Shown piece after piece: positions 3,867 to 32,397 of a stretch of DNA of 64,000 nt. The notes below the pieces were generated by a model, which did not search any database, had not been told where the DNA came from, and saw only the letters and a program-made list of their open reading frames with translations. Source of the stretch: Streptantibioticus parmotrematis (GTDB lineage: Bacteria; Actinomycetota; Actinomycetes; Streptomycetales; Streptomycetaceae); assembly GCF_019890615.1 (NCBI RefSeq), contig NZ_JAINVZ010000016.1:1-64000 (forward strand). The letters run 5' to 3'. A program made the translations under genes and the position numbers. Positions within the stretch are counted from its first letter, which is position 1. Each line of letters opens with the position of its first letter.

Positions 3867-4634
3867 GTGGAAGGCGTGAGTCCCGCCGCCGTACCCCCGC
3901 CCCGCCCGTCCGCCACCGCCGAGCCGTCCGCGGGCGGCGCACCCGTAGAGACCGCGGAGCCGTCCGCGCCCGCCGGGACCGCGGACCCGTCTGCGGGCGG
4001 CGCGTCCGCCCAGCCGTCCTCGGGCGCCGCGCCGCGCCGACGTGCCCCCGGCCGCCGCAGCCTCGCCGCCGCGCTGGTCTCCGGCGCCGCCGGGGCCTCG
4101 GTCGTCCTGCTCGCGGCGGGCAAGACGTGGGCCACCGGATCGACCCTGGCCGCCGGGAGCCTCATCGCGATCAAGGCCTCGGGCAAGGACGTCACCGGGC
4201 TGCCGGACGCCCTCGCGCTGGTCGCCCTCGCCGCGCTGGTCGCGGTCTTCGCGGTGCGCGGCACCGGGCGCGTCGTGGTCTCCGCGCTCCTCACGCTCTG
4301 CGGCGCGGGCACGGTGGCGGCGTGCGTCGCCGGCGCCTCGGCCACCGGCGCGCTCAACGCCGCGGCCACCCGGGCCTCAGGGCTGAGCGACAGCACCGTG
4401 CGGCACGCCGCGCACACCGGCTGGCCGTGGGTCGCCGCGCTGGGCGGACTGCTGCTGCTGGCGGCCGGGGTGCTGGCGCTGGCGCGCGGCGCCGCGTGGC
4501 CGGCCATGGGGAGCCGCTACGAACGCCCCGGAGGCCCGCGCGCCGGGCGTCCCGGACGCACCGCACCCGACCCGGAGAACCCCGGCGAGATGTGGAAGGC
4601 GCTGGACCGCGGCGAGGATCCGACGGAGGACTGA
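3867..4634 (+). CDS. Trp biosynthesis-associated membrane protein (TIGR02234 type)
   Basis: This 255-residue integral membrane protein matches the actinobacterial family routinely found next to tryptophan genes; its biochemical role is unknown. It has a Pro/Ala/Ser-rich cytoplasmic N-terminus of about 55 residues, then four hydrophobic segments (roughly 63-83, 112-130, 138-165 and 189-215) with the family's GKTWATGS-type loop after the first, and a charged C-terminus ending near a WKALDRGEDPT segment. GTG 3867 has AGGGG 5 nt upstream. GTG 3876 is an alternative, with a GATAGT element 7 nt before it. The gene lies between trpE and trpC, as in other Streptomyces. Confidence 0.8.
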   Translation: MEGVSPAAVPPPRPSATAEPSAGGAPVETAEPSAPAGTADPSAGGASAQPSSGAAPRRRAPGRRSLAAALVSGAAGASVVLLAAGKTWATGSTLAAGSLIAIKASGKDVTGLPDALALVALAALVAVFAVRGTGRVVVSALLTLCGAGTVAACVAGASATGALNAAATRASGLSDSTVRHAAHTGWPWVAALGGLLLLAAGVLALARGAAWPAMGSRYERPGGPRAGRPGRTAPDPENPGEMWKALDRGEDPTED

Positions 4635-5595: not shown

Positions 5596-5769
5596 GCGGA
5601 CCCGCGCCGCCCCGGCGCCCGACCCGTGTCGTCCGCCGTCCACCGGGGTCCACGGAGCGAGACCCGTGGTCACCGGATGACGGACTGCCGCCGCCTGGCG
5701 GTTACCATCGCATTACCCGCGCACGATCGCGCTGGTGAACCGCAACGCCACCGGAAGGGGGCCGCTCGC

Positions 5770-25132: not shown

Positions 25133-25287
25133 TGCCCCGGCGTTCGAGCCGTCGCGCGCCCCAACACCCCCGATACGCCGCGATTCCCGGACCGATCGGA
25201 AGCTTCCGCGCGATCCAGGCGATACCCCTACCGGCCCGGCGTCGTTGTGCCCTGCGGACCAGCACGCGCCCAGGCCAGGAGGAGCCC

Positions 25288-26793
25288 ATGACACCCGCGG
25301 GCACCTCCGGCCGGGCTCCGTCGCCGCACCGCGGCGTTCGGCGGGACGAAGGGCGGCCGTCACCCATGCCGACGACGCACGACGACGGCACACCCGGCCT
25401 GCCCGCGCTCGCCGGGGGAGCGGACGGCGCCCAGGCCCTCGGCCCGCTGCTCGACACCGTCCTGGCCGCCCTCGCGGACGGCGCCACCGCCCGGCGCGGC
25501 CCCCTCCCGCCCGGCGGCCCCGACCGCGTCGCCGACCGGCTGCGGCACACCGTGCCCCCGGGCATCCCCGCCCTCGGCACCGACCCCCACGAGGCCCTGC
25601 GCACCGTCGTACGCGCCGTCACCGAAGGCGCCGCCGACCCCGCGGACCCCCTGTGCGCCGCCCACCTGCACTGCCCGCCCCTGGCCGTCGCCGTCGCCGC
25701 CGACCTCGCCGCCAGCGCCCTCAACGCCTCCCTCGACTCCTGGGACCAGGCCCCCGCCGCCACCACCCTCGAAGCCGACACCACCGCCGACCTCGCCGCC
25801 CTGGTCTACCCCGACCTGCCGCAACCCGACGCCCTCGTCACCACCGGCGGCACCGAGGCCAACCAACTCGCCCTGCTGCTCGCCAGGGAACGCGCCCGCG
25901 CCGCCGGAGCCCGGAGCGTCCACGTGGTCTGCGGCGCCGCCGCCCACCACAGCGTGCACCGCGCCACCTGGCTGCTCGGCCTGCCCGAACCCACCGTGCT
26001 GCCCACCCCCGCCGGCACCCTCGACCCCGTCGACGCCCACGTCGCCCTCGGCGCGCTGCACGGACCCGCCCTGCTCGTCGCCACCGCCGGCACCACCGAC
26101 ACCGGCGCCATCGACCCGCTGCCCGCGCTCGCCGAGACCGTCGCCGCCCACCACGCCGAACTCCACATCGACGCCGCCTACGCCGGACCCCTGCTGTTCA
26201 GCCGCCACCGCCGCGCCCTGCTCACCGGAGTACAGTCCGCCAGCTCCGTCGGCCTCGACCTGCACAAACTCGGCTGGCAGCCGATCGCCGCAGGCCTGCT
26301 CGCCGTCCCCGACACCGCCGCGCTGCGCCCCCTGCACCACGAAGCCCACTACCTCAACGCCGCCGACGACACCGACGCAGGGCTTCCCGACCTGCTCGGC
26401 CGCTCCCTGCGCACCACCCGCCGCGCCGACGTCTTCAAGATCGCCGTCACCCTGCGCGCCCTGGGCCGCGAAGGACTCGGCCAACTCGTGGACCGCGTCT
26501 GCGACCACGCCCAACGCCTCGCCGAACTTGTCGACGCCCACCCCGCGTTGACCCTGTACGCCCACCCCGTCACCAGCACCGTGCTGTTCCGCCCCAAGGA
26601 CGCCGACAACGCCCACGTCGCCGCGATCCGGCGCCGCCTGATGACCAAGGGCACCGCCGTCCTGGGCCGCGCCCACGCCGCGGGACGCCTGTGGCTCAAA
26701 GCCACCCTGCTCAACCCCGCCACCACCGACGCCGACCTGACCACCCTCCTCGACCGGGTCGCCGGCGCCACCCCGGAAGGACACACCCCCTGA
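25288..26793 (+). CDS. PLP-dependent group II decarboxylase, DesA/lysine-decarboxylase-like
   Basis: A 501-residue fold-type I decarboxylase of the aromatic/diamino-acid group. It has TTGGTEANQLAL, the His of AAAHHSVHRA that stacks on PLP, the AGTTDTGAIDP segment, the HIDAAYAGP Asp, and the PLP lysine in DLHKLGWQP. The closest functional group by context is the decarboxylase that makes cadaverine from lysine for hydroxamate siderophores (DesA), because the next gene is an N-hydroxylase. AGGAGGAG 3 nt upstream fixes ATG 25288. It overlaps the next gene by 1 nt (TGATG). The HKLGWQP context differs from the HKTFFQP typical of DesA, so the substrate may differ. Confidence 0.8.
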   Translation: MTPAGTSGRAPSPHRGVRRDEGRPSPMPTTHDDGTPGLPALAGGADGAQALGPLLDTVLAALADGATARRGPLPPGGPDRVADRLRHTVPPGIPALGTDPHEALRTVVRAVTEGAADPADPLCAAHLHCPPLAVAVAADLAASALNASLDSWDQAPAATTLEADTTADLAALVYPDLPQPDALVTTGGTEANQLALLLARERARAAGARSVHVVCGAAAHHSVHRATWLLGLPEPTVLPTPAGTLDPVDAHVALGALHGPALLVATAGTTDTGAIDPLPALAETVAAHHAELHIDAAYAGPLLFSRHRRALLTGVQSASSVGLDLHKLGWQPIAAGLLAVPDTAALRPLHHEAHYLNAADDTDAGLPDLLGRSLRTTRRADVFKIAVTLRALGREGLGQLVDRVCDHAQRLAELVDAHPALTLYAHPVTSTVLFRPKDADNAHVAAIRRRLMTKGTAVLGRAHAAGRLWLKATLLNPATTDADLTTLLDRVAGATPEGHTP

Positions 26794-28229
26794 TGAGCAC
26801 GGACCGCGACCCGGCGCCCGACACCGCCGCACCGCTCGACCTGCTCGGCATCGGCATCGGCCCGTTCAACCTCAGCCTCGCCGCACTCGCCGACGGCGTG
26901 CCCGCCCTGCGCACCGCCTTCCTCGACCAACGGCCCGCCTTCCACTGGCACCCGGGACTCCTCATCCCCGGGGCCACCCTCCAGGTCCCCTTCCTCGCCG
27001 ACCTGGTGACCCTCGTCGAACCCGCCAGCCGCTGGTCGTTCCTGTCCTACCTCAAGAACCGCGAACGCCTCTTCCCCTTCTACTTCGCCGAGCGCTTCCA
27101 CATCCCGCGCACCGAGTACGACGCCTACTGCCGCTGGGCCGCCGACGCCCTGCCCAGCTGCCACTTCGGCCACCGCGTCGACGCCGTGCGCTGGAACCCC
27201 GATCGCGCCGAGTTCGACGTCGACTTCACCCGCCTCACCGACGACGGCACCGGGACCCCGCACCGCGCCAGGGCCCGCAACCTCGCCGTCGGCATCGGCA
27301 CCGTCCCCCACATCCCCGACCCCCTGCGCCCGCTCGCCGAGACACCCGGCGTCGCCGTACTCCACTCCGCCGACTACCTCGGCCACCGCGACCGGCTGAT
27401 CGCCGCACCCCACGTCACCGTCGTGGGCTCCGGACAGTCCGGCGCCGAGGTCTTCCTCGACCTGCTGCGGGGCCGCCCCGCCGGACAAGAGGGACTCGCC
27501 TGGATCGCCCGCACCGAGTCCATCGCCCCCATGGAATACAGCAAACTCGGCCTCGAACACTTCACCCCCGACTACACCCGCTACTTCCACCACCTCCCCG
27601 AACCCGTCCGCGACCGGCTCCTGCCCCAGCAGTGGCAGCTCTACAAGGGCATCGACCACGACACCATCGCCGCCATCCAGGAAGAGCTCTACCAGCGCAC
27701 CCTGACCGCCGACCCGGCCGGCGCACCCCACTGGCCCGACGTCACCATCACCCCCGGCGTCGCCGTCCGCACCGCCGGACGCATGGGCGCCGACCGCCTC
27801 GAACTCCACCTGGAACACGACCAGCAGGGCACCCGTACCCGCCTCACCACCGACGCCGTCGTCCTCGCCACCGGCTACCGCGAACGCCCCATGGAACCCC
27901 TGCTCGCCGCCCTCGACCCCTACCTGCGCCGCGACTCGCGCGGCCGCCCTCGTGTCGACGCCGATCACCGCCTCGTCCTCGACCCCTCGGTGCACGGCGC
28001 CGTCCACGTGCACAACGCCGCCTCGTACACCCACGGCGTCGGCACCCCCGACCTGGGCCTGGGCGCCTGGCGCTCCGCCGTCATCCTCAACTCCCTGCTG
28101 GACCAAGCCCCTTACCCGCTGCCACGCCGCACCGCCTTCACCACCTTCGGCCTGAGTCCCGACCGCGACCCCGGCCACCGCCCGGCCCGGCTGGGCGCCC
28201 AACGCGGCCCCTGCCACCAACCGGCCTGA
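26793..28229 (+). CDS. Lysine/ornithine (or diamine) N-monooxygenase, DesB/SidA-like
   Basis: A 478-residue flavin-dependent N-hydroxylating monooxygenase. It has the FAD motif GIGIGPFNLSLAAL near residue 20, the IPGATLQVPFLADLVTLVEPAS substrate-loop region, the NADPH motif GSGQSGAEVF near residue 215, and the late VVLATGYRE motif. This enzyme class makes the hydroxylamine of hydroxamate siderophores. The start is ATG 26793, coupled to the decarboxylase stop. No acyltransferase (DesC) or NIS synthetase (DesD) is present within 20 kb, so the pair cannot make desferrioxamine on its own. It may supply an unlinked pathway or a different N-hydroxylated product. Confidence 0.85.
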   Translation: MSTDRDPAPDTAAPLDLLGIGIGPFNLSLAALADGVPALRTAFLDQRPAFHWHPGLLIPGATLQVPFLADLVTLVEPASRWSFLSYLKNRERLFPFYFAERFHIPRTEYDAYCRWAADALPSCHFGHRVDAVRWNPDRAEFDVDFTRLTDDGTGTPHRARARNLAVGIGTVPHIPDPLRPLAETPGVAVLHSADYLGHRDRLIAAPHVTVVGSGQSGAEVFLDLLRGRPAGQEGLAWIARTESIAPMEYSKLGLEHFTPDYTRYFHHLPEPVRDRLLPQQWQLYKGIDHDTIAAIQEELYQRTLTADPAGAPHWPDVTITPGVAVRTAGRMGADRLELHLEHDQQGTRTRLTTDAVVLATGYRERPMEPLLAALDPYLRRDSRGRPRVDADHRLVLDPSVHGAVHVHNAASYTHGVGTPDLGLGAWRSAVILNSLLDQAPYPLPRRTAFTTFGLSPDRDPGHRPARLGAQRGPCHQPA

Positions 28230-28986: not shown

Positions 28987-29124
28987 GCGTCCACCAGCTC
29001 ACCTGAGACCACAGGCACTGATGCGGCGTGTCGTCGGAAGATGTACGTATGCCGGTCAACAACCTTTAACGCAGCGGTCGTTCGCCCTTCCCCGGCAACC
29101 GTCTCCCTACCGGGCGGTAAGTCG

Positions 29125-29130
29125 TAGGCT
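29125..29130 (+). promoter_or_regulatory. -10 element of leaderless pyk promoter
   Basis: TAGGCT stands 7 nt before the pyk ATG, and no Shine-Dalgarno is present. Confidence 0.55.
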
Positions 29131-29137
29131 CGATGGT

Positions 29138-30571
29138 ATGCGCCGAGCGAAGATCGTCTGCACCCTTGGGCCCGCGACCGACTCGTACGACCAGATCAAG
29201 GCCCTGGTCGAGTCGGGCATGGACGTGGCGAGACTCAACCTCAGCCACGGATCGCACGCCGACCACGAGGAACGCTACCGACGCGTGCGCAAGGCCGCCG
29301 AGGAGACCGGCCGCAGCGTCGGCGTCCTGGTCGACCTTCAAGGCCCGAAGATCCGGCTGGGCCGCTTCGCCGGCGGACCGGTACTCCTTGAACGCGGCGA
29401 CGAGTTCACCATCACCATGGACGACGTCGACGGCGACCACCAGATGTGCGGCACCACCTACAAGGGCCTGGCCACCGACGTCAGCCGAGGCGAACGCATC
29501 CTCGTCGACGACGGCCGGGTCACCCTGGAGGTCACCGACGTCGAAGGCCCCCGCGTCCACACCATGGTCATCGAAGGCGGCCTGGTCTCCGACAACAAGG
29601 GCCTCAACCTCCCCGGCGTCGCCGTCTCCGTCCCCGCGCTGTCCACCAAGGACATCGAGGACCTGCGCTGGGGCCTGCGCGCCGGAGCCGACATCATCGC
29701 GCTCTCCTTCGTCCGCTCCGGACAGGACATGGACGACGTCCTGCGGATCATGGAGGAGGAAGGCCGCCGGGTCCCGGTCATCGCCAAGATCGAGAAGCCG
29801 CAGGCGGTCGAACGCATCGAGGAGATCGTCGCCGCGTTCGACGGCATCATGGTCGCGCGCGGCGACCTGGGCGTCGAAATGCCGCTGGAGACCGTGCCGT
29901 TGGTGCAGAAGCGCGCCGTCAAGCTCGCCAGGCGCAACGCCAAGCCCGCCATCGTCGCCACCCAGATGCTCGACTCGATGATCGAGACGTCCCGGCCCAC
30001 CCGCGCCGAGGCGTCCGACGTCGCCAACGCCGTCATGGACGGCGCCGACGCGGTCATGCTGTCGGGGGAGACCAGCGTCGGCAAGTACCCCGTCGAGACG
30101 GTCAAGACGATGGGACGGATCGTCGCGGCCGCCGAGGAGGACATGCTCGCCGGGGGACTCCCGCCGCTCAGCGAACGCGGCAAGCCGCGCACCCAGGGCG
30201 GCGCGGTGGCCCGCGCGGCGGCCGAGATGGGCGACTTCCTCGGCGCCAAGTTCCTCGTCGCCTTCACCCAGAGCGGCGACACCGCCCGCCGCCTGTCCCG
30301 CTACCGCTCGCCCATCCCGGTCCTCGCGTTCACCCCCGAGGAGGCGACCCGCTCGCAACTGAGCCTGACGTGGGGCGTCGAGACGTTCCTCGGGCCGGTC
30401 GTGCAGACCACGGACGAGATGGTCGACCAAGTCGACGAGCACCTGCTGCGCATCGGCCGCTGCAAGCGGGGCGACGTCGTCGTCATCACGGCGGGCTCCC
30501 CGCCCGGCATCCCCGGCACGACGAACATGGTCCGCGTCCACCACATCGGCGAGGACGACGCGCCCAAGTAG
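29138..30571 (+). CDS. pyk: Pyruvate kinase
   Basis: Pyruvate kinase converts phosphoenolpyruvate and ADP to pyruvate and ATP. The 477-residue enzyme shows the N-terminal KIVCTLGPAT motif, the B domain (about 70-165), the ExGGLVSDNKGLNLPGV loop, the catalytic lysine segment VIAKIEKPQAVE, the metal-binding MVARGDLGVE, and TRAEASDVANAV, then the C-terminal allosteric domain. ATG 29138 fits a leaderless start. It is a single-gene unit, as in related genomes. Confidence 0.96.
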   Translation: MRRAKIVCTLGPATDSYDQIKALVESGMDVARLNLSHGSHADHEERYRRVRKAAEETGRSVGVLVDLQGPKIRLGRFAGGPVLLERGDEFTITMDDVDGDHQMCGTTYKGLATDVSRGERILVDDGRVTLEVTDVEGPRVHTMVIEGGLVSDNKGLNLPGVAVSVPALSTKDIEDLRWGLRAGADIIALSFVRSGQDMDDVLRIMEEEGRRVPVIAKIEKPQAVERIEEIVAAFDGIMVARGDLGVEMPLETVPLVQKRAVKLARRNAKPAIVATQMLDSMIETSRPTRAEASDVANAVMDGADAVMLSGETSVGKYPVETVKTMGRIVAAAEEDMLAGGLPPLSERGKPRTQGGAVARAAAEMGDFLGAKFLVAFTQSGDTARRLSRYRSPIPVLAFTPEEATRSQLSLTWGVETFLGPVVQTTDEMVDQVDEHLLRIGRCKRGDVVVITAGSPPGIPGTTNMVRVHHIGEDDAPK

Positions 30572-30621
30572 GCGGTGGGGGCGCGCCGTTGGGCGGGTGC
30601 GGGCGGCGGGGCGCAGTGGGT

Positions 30622-30689
30622 GGCGAGCGGCGGGGGCGCGTGGTGTGCGCGCCCAGGAGGCGAGCGGCGGGGCGTGTGGTGCACGCGCC
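30622..30689 (+). repeat. Two-copy GC-rich direct repeat after pyk
   Basis: GGCGAGCGGCGGGG begins near-identical units at 30622 and 30659 (37-bp period), each ending in GCGCC. They fill most of the gap between pyk and the convergent LAGLIDADG gene. Confidence 0.6.
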
Positions 30690-31484
30690 TCACCCCTTGG
30701 GCCCGACGTAGGCGTCCATCAGCGCCACGGAGGGACGGCGGGCTACGGATATGTTGTACGCGACGGTGCCCCGCCTGGTGACCCGCCAGTCGACGCCCAC
30801 CATGTCGAGGGTGTCCGTGTAGAGCCGCCGGATGTCGTCGGACTTGTTGGTGAAGAGATATCGGGCGTACTCGTACCTCTTCGGCTCGCCGGCGACCTTT
30901 CTGATCGTCCAGTTGGTGACGCGGCATCCGTCGGAGTGCACGAGGCCTCGCACGAATTCCCACGGGTGGGCATCGACGATGTCCTGTTGCCAGGGCTGGA
31001 GCAGAATGCGTCGCTCGTGCTTCTTGCCCGGCCCATGCTGGGGGAAGAGGCACCACAGGTGGCAGGAGGAGACCTTGACGTCGTGGCACCCTTTGCGTCG
31101 GAGGCGACAGGGTCGGTTGTGCGGAAACACCCGGCGCATGGCCTCCTCGGCGGCGTCCATGAGGCCGGGCCACTTGTCGTCACACGAGATCATCAGGCTC
31201 GGGGCGCGTTGCTGGGGCGACCACATGATGTAGCCGTCCCCCAGGTAGAGGCCCAGTAAGTAGGCGTACGCGGCGCGGTCGAGCGGACGGCCGCCGCACC
31301 GCGGGCAGAGCAGGTTGGGGCGCCCCGGAAGGGCTCCGCGACCCGCGCGGTCCACATGGAGCCAGTAGCCCACCGTGCCCACGGGGACATCGAGGAGGCG
31401 GGCGACCTCGGCATTGGTGACGCCCTTGGCGAGGAGGGCGAGGGCCTCGTGGCGCATCGAACTGCTGTGTTGGTTCATGTACAC
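30690..31484 (-). CDS. HTH-LAGLIDADG protein (homing-endonuclease-like regulator)
   Basis: A 264-residue protein. Residues 8-45 form a helix-turn-helix of the resolvase/sigma-like kind (EALALLAKGVTNAEVARLLD). C60-x2-C63 may be part of a small zinc knuckle. Two LAGLIDADG-type helices follow, LGLYLGDG at 77-84 and RGLVHSDG at 179-186, each ending in the acidic residue that coordinates the catalytic metal in homing endonucleases. WhiA-type regulators share this architecture but have lost nuclease residues; here the DG/SDG aspartates are retained. Leu76 is encoded by TTA (31257-31259), a codon that in Streptomyces needs the bldA tRNA. Base composition is less GC-rich than in its neighbours. The start among the Met codons at 31484, 31478 and 31457 is uncertain. 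Its 5' end lies 66 nt from tRNA-Leu. Confidence 0.7.
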   Translation of the reverse strand: MYMNQHSSSMRHEALALLAKGVTNAEVARLLDVPVGTVGYWLHVDRAGRGALPGRPNLLCPRCGGRPLDRAAYAYLLGLYLGDGYIMWSPQQRAPSLMISCDDKWPGLMDAAEEAMRRVFPHNRPCRLRRKGCHDVKVSSCHLWCLFPQHGPGKKHERRILLQPWQQDIVDAHPWEFVRGLVHSDGCRVTNWTIRKVAGEPKRYEYARYLFTNKSDDIRRLYTDTLDMVGVDWRVTRRGTVAYNISVARRPSVALMDAYVGPKG

Positions 31485-31550
31485 AGCGTGACCCGAGAGT
31501 CAGGCGAATGCCATGGAAAGGGGAATCATCTACCCGAACGAGTGATCGAG

Positions 31551-31633
31551 TGCCGGGTGCGGGATTCGAACCCGCAAGCCCTCTCGGGCAGATGTGTTTG
31601 AGACATCCGTGTATGCCATTCCACCAACCCGGC
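31551..31633 (-). tRNA. tRNA-Leu(CAA)
   Basis: An 83-nt class II tRNA without an encoded CCA. The acceptor stem pairs GCCGGGT with ACCCGGC, the anticodon stem-loop is GATGT-CTCAAAC-ACATC with anticodon CAA (reads UUG), the variable arm is GCCC-GAGA-GGGC, and the T arm has GTTCGAATCC. It is not bldA, which has anticodon UAA. Confidence 0.95.
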
Positions 31634-31728
31634 AGGGAACGCAGGCCACAGCCTACAGGTTGGGAGCGGCGGGAGTCACACAGGTAGGCTCGGGAAGGTG
31701 CACCCCGCCCCCCGAAACGAGGAGCCCA

Positions 31729-32397
31729 GTGAGCGCCGCTGACGCCCCCGACGAGTTCGCTACCGCCGCTGCGGAGGAGACGGCCGCCGCCGGAGGCGAC
31801 CACGTGCCGCCGCACACCACCCGCGTCGTCATCGCCGAGGACGAGGCCCTGATCCGGCTCGACCTGAAGGAGATGCTGGAAGAGGAGGGCTACTCCGTCG
31901 TGGGCGAGGCCGGCGACGGACAGCGCGCCGTCGAGCTCGCCGAGGAGCACCGCCCCGACCTGGTCATCCTCGACGTGAAGATGCCCGTCCTCGACGGCAT
32001 CTCCGCCGCCGAGCGCATCGCCAACGACCGCATCGCGCCCGTCCTGATGCTGACCGCCTTCTCCCAGCGCGAGCTGGTCGACCGCGCCCGCGAGGCCGGG
32101 GCGATGGCCTACCTGGTCAAGCCGTTCAGCAAGAGCGACCTGGTCCCGGCCATCGAGATGGCCGTCTCCCGCTTCACCGAACTGCGTGCCCTGGAAGCCG
32201 AGATCGCCGATCTCTCGCTGCGCCTGGAGACCCGCAAGCTGGTGGATCGCGCCAAGAGCGCGTTGCAGACCAAGTACGGGCTGAGTGAGCCGGCCGCGTT
32301 CCGCTGGATCCAGAAGACCTCGATGGACCGTCGGATGTCCATGCAGGCGGTGGCCCAGGCCGTGATCGACGAGGTCGGCGGCGACACCGACGGCTGA
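31729..32397 (+). CDS. pdtaR: ANTAR-domain response regulator, PdtaR-like
   Basis: A 222-residue response regulator. An Ala/Glu-rich leader (1-30) is followed by a receiver domain with acidic pocket E37-D38, phospho-acceptor Asp82 (VILDVKMP) and the conserved Lys in VKPFSK. The C-terminal ANTAR RNA-binding domain runs from about 150 to 212 (ALEAEIADLSLRLETRKLVDRAK...). ANTAR regulators bind paired RNA hairpins and cause antitermination; in mycobacteria the orthologue pairs with the PdtaS kinase, which is not in this window. GTG 31729 has GGAG 4 nt upstream. TAGGCT at 31685-31690 is a possible -10. Confidence 0.9.
   Translation: MSAADAPDEFATAAAEETAAAGGDHVPPHTTRVVIAEDEALIRLDLKEMLEEEGYSVVGEAGDGQRAVELAEEHRPDLVILDVKMPVLDGISAAERIANDRIAPVLMLTAFSQRELVDRAREAGAMAYLVKPFSKSDLVPAIEMAVSRFTELRALEAEIADLSLRLETRKLVDRAKSALQTKYGLSEPAAFRWIQKTSMDRRMSMQAVAQAVIDEVGGDTDG

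Follow-up and report, generated by a model that had tools for sequence, protein, structure and literature searches.

Why does a free-standing gene whose product joins a helix-turn-helix to a LAGLIDADG domain stand beside a tRNA gene in an actinomycete chromosome, and has the host made a regulator of it or is it still a mobile element? The window analysed here (the whole 64,000-nucleotide stretch of DNA, from genome G000) contains a single tRNA detectable with ARAGORN, a tRNA-Leu(CAA), and the distance from this tRNA to the GTG codon of the endonuclease-like ORF is 65 nt (66 nt in the original prediction, which was made from the sequence of this locus). The features of the locus to which we refer below are as follows:

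29021..30571, + strand: flanking gene pyk, an ORF outside the cassette, present at most loci
30566..31710 (ends approximate), − strand: replaceable cassette made up of the tRNA promoter region, tRNA-Leu(CAA) and the endonuclease gene, delimited by the drop in identity to genome G001
30690..31484, − strand: endonuclease-like ORF, free-standing LAGLIDADG, 264 aa from GTG
30927..30965, − strand: second LAGLIDADG helix with D185, residues 174–186 (alignment and model)
31233..31277, − strand: first LAGLIDADG helix with D83, residues 70–84 (alignment and model)
31257..31259, − strand: TTA codon, Leu76, not conserved (codon read and compared with relatives)
31338..31463, − strand: N-terminal helix-turn-helix, residues 8–49 (HTH_23 match and model helices 8–19, 24–31 and 35–49)
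31550..31633, − strand: tRNA-Leu(CAA), class II with a normal long variable arm (ARAGORN)
31731..32397 (start approximate), + strand: flanking response-regulator-like gene (RR), an ORF outside the cassette

The endonuclease-like protein probably starts at the in-frame ATG at 31478, two codons into the ORF, and is then 262 aa long, since methionine occupies this position in 63 of 80 aligned relatives. The flanking ORFs we take to be a pyruvate kinase gene (pyk) and a response-regulator-like gene (RR), product names that were read from their sequences; at 274 of 278 loci the RR coding sequence could be retrieved. The window genome has one full copy of the endonuclease-like gene, one match to the class II tRNA-Leu(CAA) pattern and none to the class I pattern (classes defined below). 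The gene had also been described as less GC-rich than its neighbours, which is right yet mild (0.674 against 0.716 in the surrounding 6.8 kb), since a similarly small deficit is present across its relatives. An integrative element with a tRNA attachment site was considered and rejected, since just one gene separates the tRNA from pyk in the window, and no integrase was seen there. Elsewhere in the window, one stretch of the long ORF at 25245–28229 resembles, by eye, a siderophore lysine/ornithine monooxygenase.

Linkage of the gene to tRNA-Leu and the two classes of tRNA-Leu(CAA)

A scan of a genome collection retained 80 of 127 relatives, and in all 80 a tRNA-Leu(CAA) gene lies upstream of the endonuclease-like gene on the same strand at a distance of 75–251 nt, so the adjacency noted in the window is common to its relatives. 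Among 51 further loci (about half of them from other families, and two of them views of one place) a tRNA-Leu is present at 50 and the remaining locus ends at a contig edge; the CAA tRNA is divergent in four of these loci and a tRNA-Leu(TAG) is divergent in three. Homologs were found in 14 of 124 genomes from other classes of the phylum, and the five loci examined there (L445–L449) all carry tRNA-Leu(CAA), in divergent, upstream and downstream placements. This persistence of the link despite changed gene order points to the tRNA gene itself, and not an operon, as the partner of the endonuclease-like gene.

Two kinds of locus depart from the usual arrangement. The homologs at L130–L132 (family f4) stand divergently beside tRNA-Leu(TAG) rather than the CAA gene, possibly through a shift of target to another leucine tRNA. 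In four genomes (G172, G190, G250 and G394; loci L407, L408, L411 and L412) two different endonuclease genes lie head to tail after a single class I tRNA-Leu(CAA).

Many of the tRNA-Leu(CAA) genes beside the endonuclease-like gene belong to this class I, which is 73–78 nt long with a five-base variable loop and without the long arm, whereas a tRNA-Leu would be expected to belong to class II. Pattern searches of 200 Streptomycetaceae genomes gave class I only in 126, class II only in 68, both in none and neither in six, after manual removal of clear non-tRNA-Leu matches and of three extra class II copies (G291 and G297); one of the six pattern-less genomes, G388, has a class I tRNA with a mismatch, which brings class I to 127 of 200. 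An endonuclease gene or fragment is present in 90 of the 126 class I genomes, 55 of the 68 class II genomes and one of the other six. A table in the available portion of PMC4932002 likewise gives a single tRNA-Leu(CAA) gene for each of six Streptomyces genomes. Departures from the usual single copy are G291 (contigs C51, C89 and C96) and G297 (C116 and C132), where the class II pattern matches two or three times, in two kinds, and L413 (G422, 4047–4122) and L414 (G370, 5644–5719), where another class I tRNA-Leu(CAA) of slightly changed sequence stands apart from the pyk locus; these second tRNAs adjoin ORFs that by eye resemble a regulatory or biosynthetic cluster.

The class I tRNA-Leu(CAA) looks like a working tRNA. 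In an alignment of 29 of the 107 unique class I sequences, 99.1% of cells are paired, two-sided changes occur in 13 of 20 pairs, and covariation is 0.539 compared with 0.148 when shuffled. All 107 unique sequences have A73, the D-loop GG and a 15–48 pair that is either A15-U48 (69 sequences) or G15-C48 (38 sequences), the position numbers being our own reading. Leucine identity in E. coli is attributed to A73, A15-U48, G18G19 and A20a, and the long arm is not needed for leucylation, according to the available text of PMC9976931. Genomes from other taxonomic classes seldom match the class I pattern (7 of the 114 sampled, one of the seven probably by chance).

The anticodon stems of these tRNAs are diverse and yet paired: the unique tRNA-Leu(CAA) sequences contain 31 variants in class I and 26 in class II. 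Genus g117 has nine combinations of class and stem in 62 genomes, compared with one stem in the 24 bldA rows that were typed (the remaining g117 bldA rows have the same stem except for two odd matches, in G299 and as a second match in G388). Across families, in a count that covers 173 of 246 genomes after Streptomycetaceae rows, second copies and non-tRNA matches were dropped by hand, family f17 (21 genomes, 14 with a homolog) has fourteen anticodon stems; in f18, where none of the 20 genomes has a homolog, 19 share one class I stem; and f25 (18 genomes, no homolog) is class I in all 18 with two stems. No homolog occurs among the counted rows of f9 and f36, and these families show five and four stems, respectively. 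The cross-family link of stem diversity to endonuclease presence is thus suggestive and not clean. Since class I is fixed in the homolog-free families f18 and f25, the class I form is independent of the endonuclease gene.

Replacement of the tRNA and endonuclease gene as a block

The sole genome of the same genus in the comparison, G001 (L322), has flanks that are 92–100% identical to those of the window in most 50-nt intervals, whereas identity between about 31710 and 30566 is 0.26–0.86 per 50-nt interval. G001 has a class I tRNA-Leu(CAA) compared with the class II tRNA of the window, and its endonuclease gene is divergent and broken over two frames. The same block is delimited in 16 close pairs of loci, where it begins 47–130 nt upstream of the tRNA and ends, in most pairs, within the final 100 nt of the gene or ahead of pyk (the L269/L361 and L359 pairs are partly mis-registered through tandem genes or inserts, and their gene and pyk figures were excluded). 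Among 32 locus pairs with both flanks more than 95% identical, 10 differ in tRNA class and gene identity goes down to 0.63; the sampled sets may share genomes, since some gene pairs are identical, and any such duplicates would add only to the same-class pairs.

The trees agree with the pairwise comparisons. Across the 122 loci that have both the gene and pyk, nucleotide identity of pyk correlates with that of RR at a rho of 0.77 and with that of the endonuclease gene at a rho of 0.32. On the tree of the endonuclease gene, tRNA class changes 9 (protein) or 10 (nucleotide) times, compared with 32 times on the pyk tree (a single gene that may itself recombine), 33 on the RR tree and about 40 when labels are shuffled. 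These measurements show that tRNA class follows the endonuclease lineage rather than the species, and that the tRNA and gene block has been repeatedly replaced between related species. That the tRNA itself is swapped together with the gene goes beyond the original prediction, as does the generality of the pairing.

The tRNA is swapped mostly, though not always, along with the endonuclease gene. Loci L010 and L012 differ in tRNA class while their endonuclease genes are 0.94 identical, and gene identity is 0.79 in the tRNA-swapped pairs L277/L363 and L312/L366. Gene-less class I loci have gene-bearing class II sisters (L291/L368, with RR 0.993 identical), so replacement does not always bring the gene.

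We think it probable that this is a free-standing homing endonuclease gene which spreads jointly with its tRNA-Leu allele, the two replacing the resident tRNA-Leu(CAA) locus. An ordinary free-standing homing endonuclease might instead cut outside the tRNA, for example in the spacer between tRNA and pyk, and the tRNA would then merely be co-converted. Hitch-hiking of neighbours is usual for free-standing endonucleases, and the fixation of class I in homolog-free families means that tRNA variants can exist without the gene. The target of T4 SegB, moreover, is given as a "tRNA intergenic region" in the available portion of PMC2988022. Such spacers should be unrelated among the arrangements described above, however, and the gene nonetheless stays by tRNA-Leu whether the tRNA is upstream, downstream or divergent, and also by tRNA-Leu(TAG); the anticodon stem is, in addition, unusually diverse in endonuclease-bearing groups. 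We therefore regard a cut outside the tRNA as unlikely, though it is the alternative that we take most seriously.

Replacement might also need no nuclease drive at all: the locus could be a hot spot of recombination, or balancing selection could act on the tRNA, with the gene as a passenger. Streptomyces recombine readily, and both tRNA-only swaps and gene-less swaps occur. We judge this very improbable since tRNA class tracks the endonuclease lineage with far fewer changes than on the flank trees, and since proximity to tRNA-Leu recurs throughout the phylum. Joint spread of the endonuclease gene and its tRNA allele remains our preferred reading.

The encoded protein and the distribution of its gene

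The proposed union of a helix-turn-helix with two LAGLIDADG helices is borne out by Pfam matches that lie below curated cut-offs and by the predicted fold. HTH_23 matches residues 8–43 (E 4.1e-5, under its cut-off) and LAGLIDADG_3 matches with E 0.0038 and 17.9 bits against a cut-off of 22.5, which is a yardstick and not a defining trait; NCBIfam and PHROGs gave weak matches at the level of the helix-turn-helix, and a sequence search of the PDB with the protein gave no match. The AlphaFold model (pLDDT 87.6) has an N-terminal helix-turn-helix and a two-repeat LAGLIDADG fold over about residues 67–262, in which motif 1 is AYLLGLYLGDG (D83) and motif 2 is FVRGLVHSDGC (D185). The motif aspartates are retained in the window protein, as had been noted, and across its relatives: both are present in 80 of 80 aligned relatives (from 81, the truncated L067 having been omitted), and among intact genes D83 is found in 209 of 211 and D185 in 210 of 211. 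A CxxC (31296–31307, residues 60 and 63) and an HxxC (31050–31061, residues 142 and 145) hardly vary among the first 80 relatives, are retained in most of the 211 as well, and could form a zinc site within the LAGLIDADG domain.

The comparison with WhiA structures that had been proposed as a check confirmed the LAGLIDADG fold and left nuclease and regulator unseparated. The best solved match is I-DmoI (Z 15.5, rmsd 3.2, 164 residues aligned), and Streptomyces WhiA (8dy7_I) ties with it (Z 15.2, rmsd 3.3, 175 residues aligned), so fold alone cannot distinguish the two functions. Foldseek gave an archaeal homing endonuclease (E 2.4e-8), and the bI3 maturase is also among the fold matches. The retained motif aspartates make us lean toward a nuclease over a regulator.

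The TTA codon at Leu76 is present in the window gene as had been noted. The further idea that translation needs the bldA tRNA fails as a family feature, and we rejected bldA dependence as a conserved trait: TTA occurs anywhere in 41 of 211 intact genes and at the Leu76 column in just 10 of 211. Since the codon is rarely kept among relatives, obligatory bldA control is unsupported.

A survey of the gene at this tRNA, also among the checks proposed, gave 211 intact, 17 partial or broken and 50 absent among 278 loci, and 54 of the 200 Streptomycetaceae genomes have no matching homolog. At gene-less loci with pyk the gap between tRNA and pyk is often 53–563 nt, and longer gaps hold unrelated ORFs; by eye, no other nuclease was recognised among the ORFs of 11 of the 50 gene-less loci. 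Median dN/dS is 0.153 for intact endonuclease genes (45 pairs) and 0.135 for pyk (30 pairs), which is purifying selection, and a value near that of pyk is equally expected of an ordinary useful gene. A search for carriage by phages and plasmids gave no match at E 0.01 in two annotated collections, a result that covers collected vectors only. Patchy presence, decay and co-conversion of flanking DNA, all observed here, are traits of a free-standing homing element.

Two readings of the gene had been offered, a domesticated homing endonuclease turned developmental regulator and a still-mobile element near a tRNA. A WhiA-like DNA-binding regulator of the adjacent tRNA or of development, possibly under bldA, would account for the helix-turn-helix, for purifying selection and for a fold that matches Streptomyces WhiA and I-DmoI equally well. 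In WhiA, however, the catalytic acids are lost and the helix-turn-helix is C-terminal, whereas here both acids are kept and the helix-turn-helix is N-terminal; the absence of a match from more than a quarter of the Streptomycetaceae genomes, the decay of copies and the poor conservation of TTA also argue against domestication, which we consider very improbable. Universal vertical conservation with loss of the acids in relatives had been named as a refuting outcome, and we found neither the one nor the other. Support for the still-mobile element is good: the acids are retained, the gene is patchily distributed and sometimes broken, and the block of tRNA and gene has been replaced repeatedly between species. 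Finally, that the protein acts on RNA, as a tRNA-Leu(CAA)-cutting toxin or defence nuclease to which the linked tRNA variant gives immunity, strikes us as scarcely credible: the variable stems include that of the anticodon arm, where tRNA nucleases commonly act, and LAGLIDADG proteins can act with RNA (one fold match is the bI3 maturase), but the helix-turn-helix suggests DNA binding and LAGLIDADG cleavage is known on DNA.

Proposed mechanism and comparison with known systems

If a homing endonuclease and its tRNA allele do spread jointly, the home site of the LAGLIDADG enzyme would be the tRNA-Leu(CAA) locus. In a cell with a different resident tRNA-Leu(CAA) allele the enzyme would cut at or near the tRNA gene, and repair from the incoming DNA would replace the region from about 50–130 nt upstream of the tRNA through the end of the endonuclease gene. 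The cell would thus gain the endonuclease and a differently spelled working tRNA-Leu(CAA), often class I for class II, which the enzyme would spare and which would sustain UUG decoding. An enzyme of this kind has to leave its own cassette intact, and the part of that cassette with a differing counterpart in the recipient is the tRNA, so we propose the tRNA gene as the target and the linked tRNA as the resistant copy; the linked tRNA is probably the uncuttable version. The comparisons above show replacement itself, whereas we infer that the enzyme cleaves DNA, that it does so in the tRNA gene, that the linked tRNA resists it and that cutting drives the replacements.

A stronger form of this mechanism, which we put forward tentatively and hold with less than even confidence, is a natural bacterial cleave-and-rescue drive, in which the endonuclease would destroy rival alleles of the sole tRNA-Leu(CAA) gene and the re-spelled, uncuttable tRNA would rescue the cell. 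Haplotypes would then overwrite each other, and the arms race would maintain the two classes with their many class I and class II stems. If true, this would be a naturally evolved gene drive in soil actinomycetes, with a housekeeping tRNA as both target and antidote, and it would account for the exchange of one tRNA gene between species while its neighbours stay.

Free-standing homing elements are already known as a type of element. Our searches of the open-access literature turned up neither this gene family nor its association with a tRNA, and no Streptomyces tRNA-Leu(CAA) of class I. A paper on non-canonical tRNAs (PMC7609411) mentions neither "Streptomyces" nor "actinobacteria".

The nearest known system is T4 SegB, which like the window gene is a free-standing endonuclease by tRNA genes. 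By its title, a 2008 paper reports that preferential inheritance of the tRNA gene region of T4 requires SegB. It is a GIY-YIG enzyme of a phage tRNA cluster, whereas the window system is a LAGLIDADG enzyme of a bacterial chromosome, and the tRNA-Leu(CAA) that is exchanged here between two structural classes is apparently the only one of its host. I-DmoI and other monomeric LAGLIDADG homing endonucleases share the two-repeat fold with one acidic motif residue per repeat, but enzymes of that type are intron- or intein-encoded, while the window gene is free-standing and encodes an N-terminal helix-turn-helix. The sporulation regulator WhiA of Streptomyces shares the LAGLIDADG fold joined to a helix-turn-helix; the window gene differs in that its motif acids are kept, its distribution is patchy, its copies decay and its helix-turn-helix is at the opposite end. 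Synthetic cleave-and-rescue gene drives likewise couple a nuclease to a working copy of the cut gene that resists it (the mechanism inferred here); those drives are engineered, whereas the present system is natural and bacterial with a tRNA as the putative rescue. Lastly, the mycobacterial tRNA clusters with HNH genes, described in the available text of PMC6582537, resemble it in that tRNA genes have moved with an endonuclease, and one cluster tRNA-Leu(TAG) there has a short variable loop; those clusters are extra to the host set and are thought by their authors to be phage-derived, while the tRNA of the window system replaces the sole host gene.
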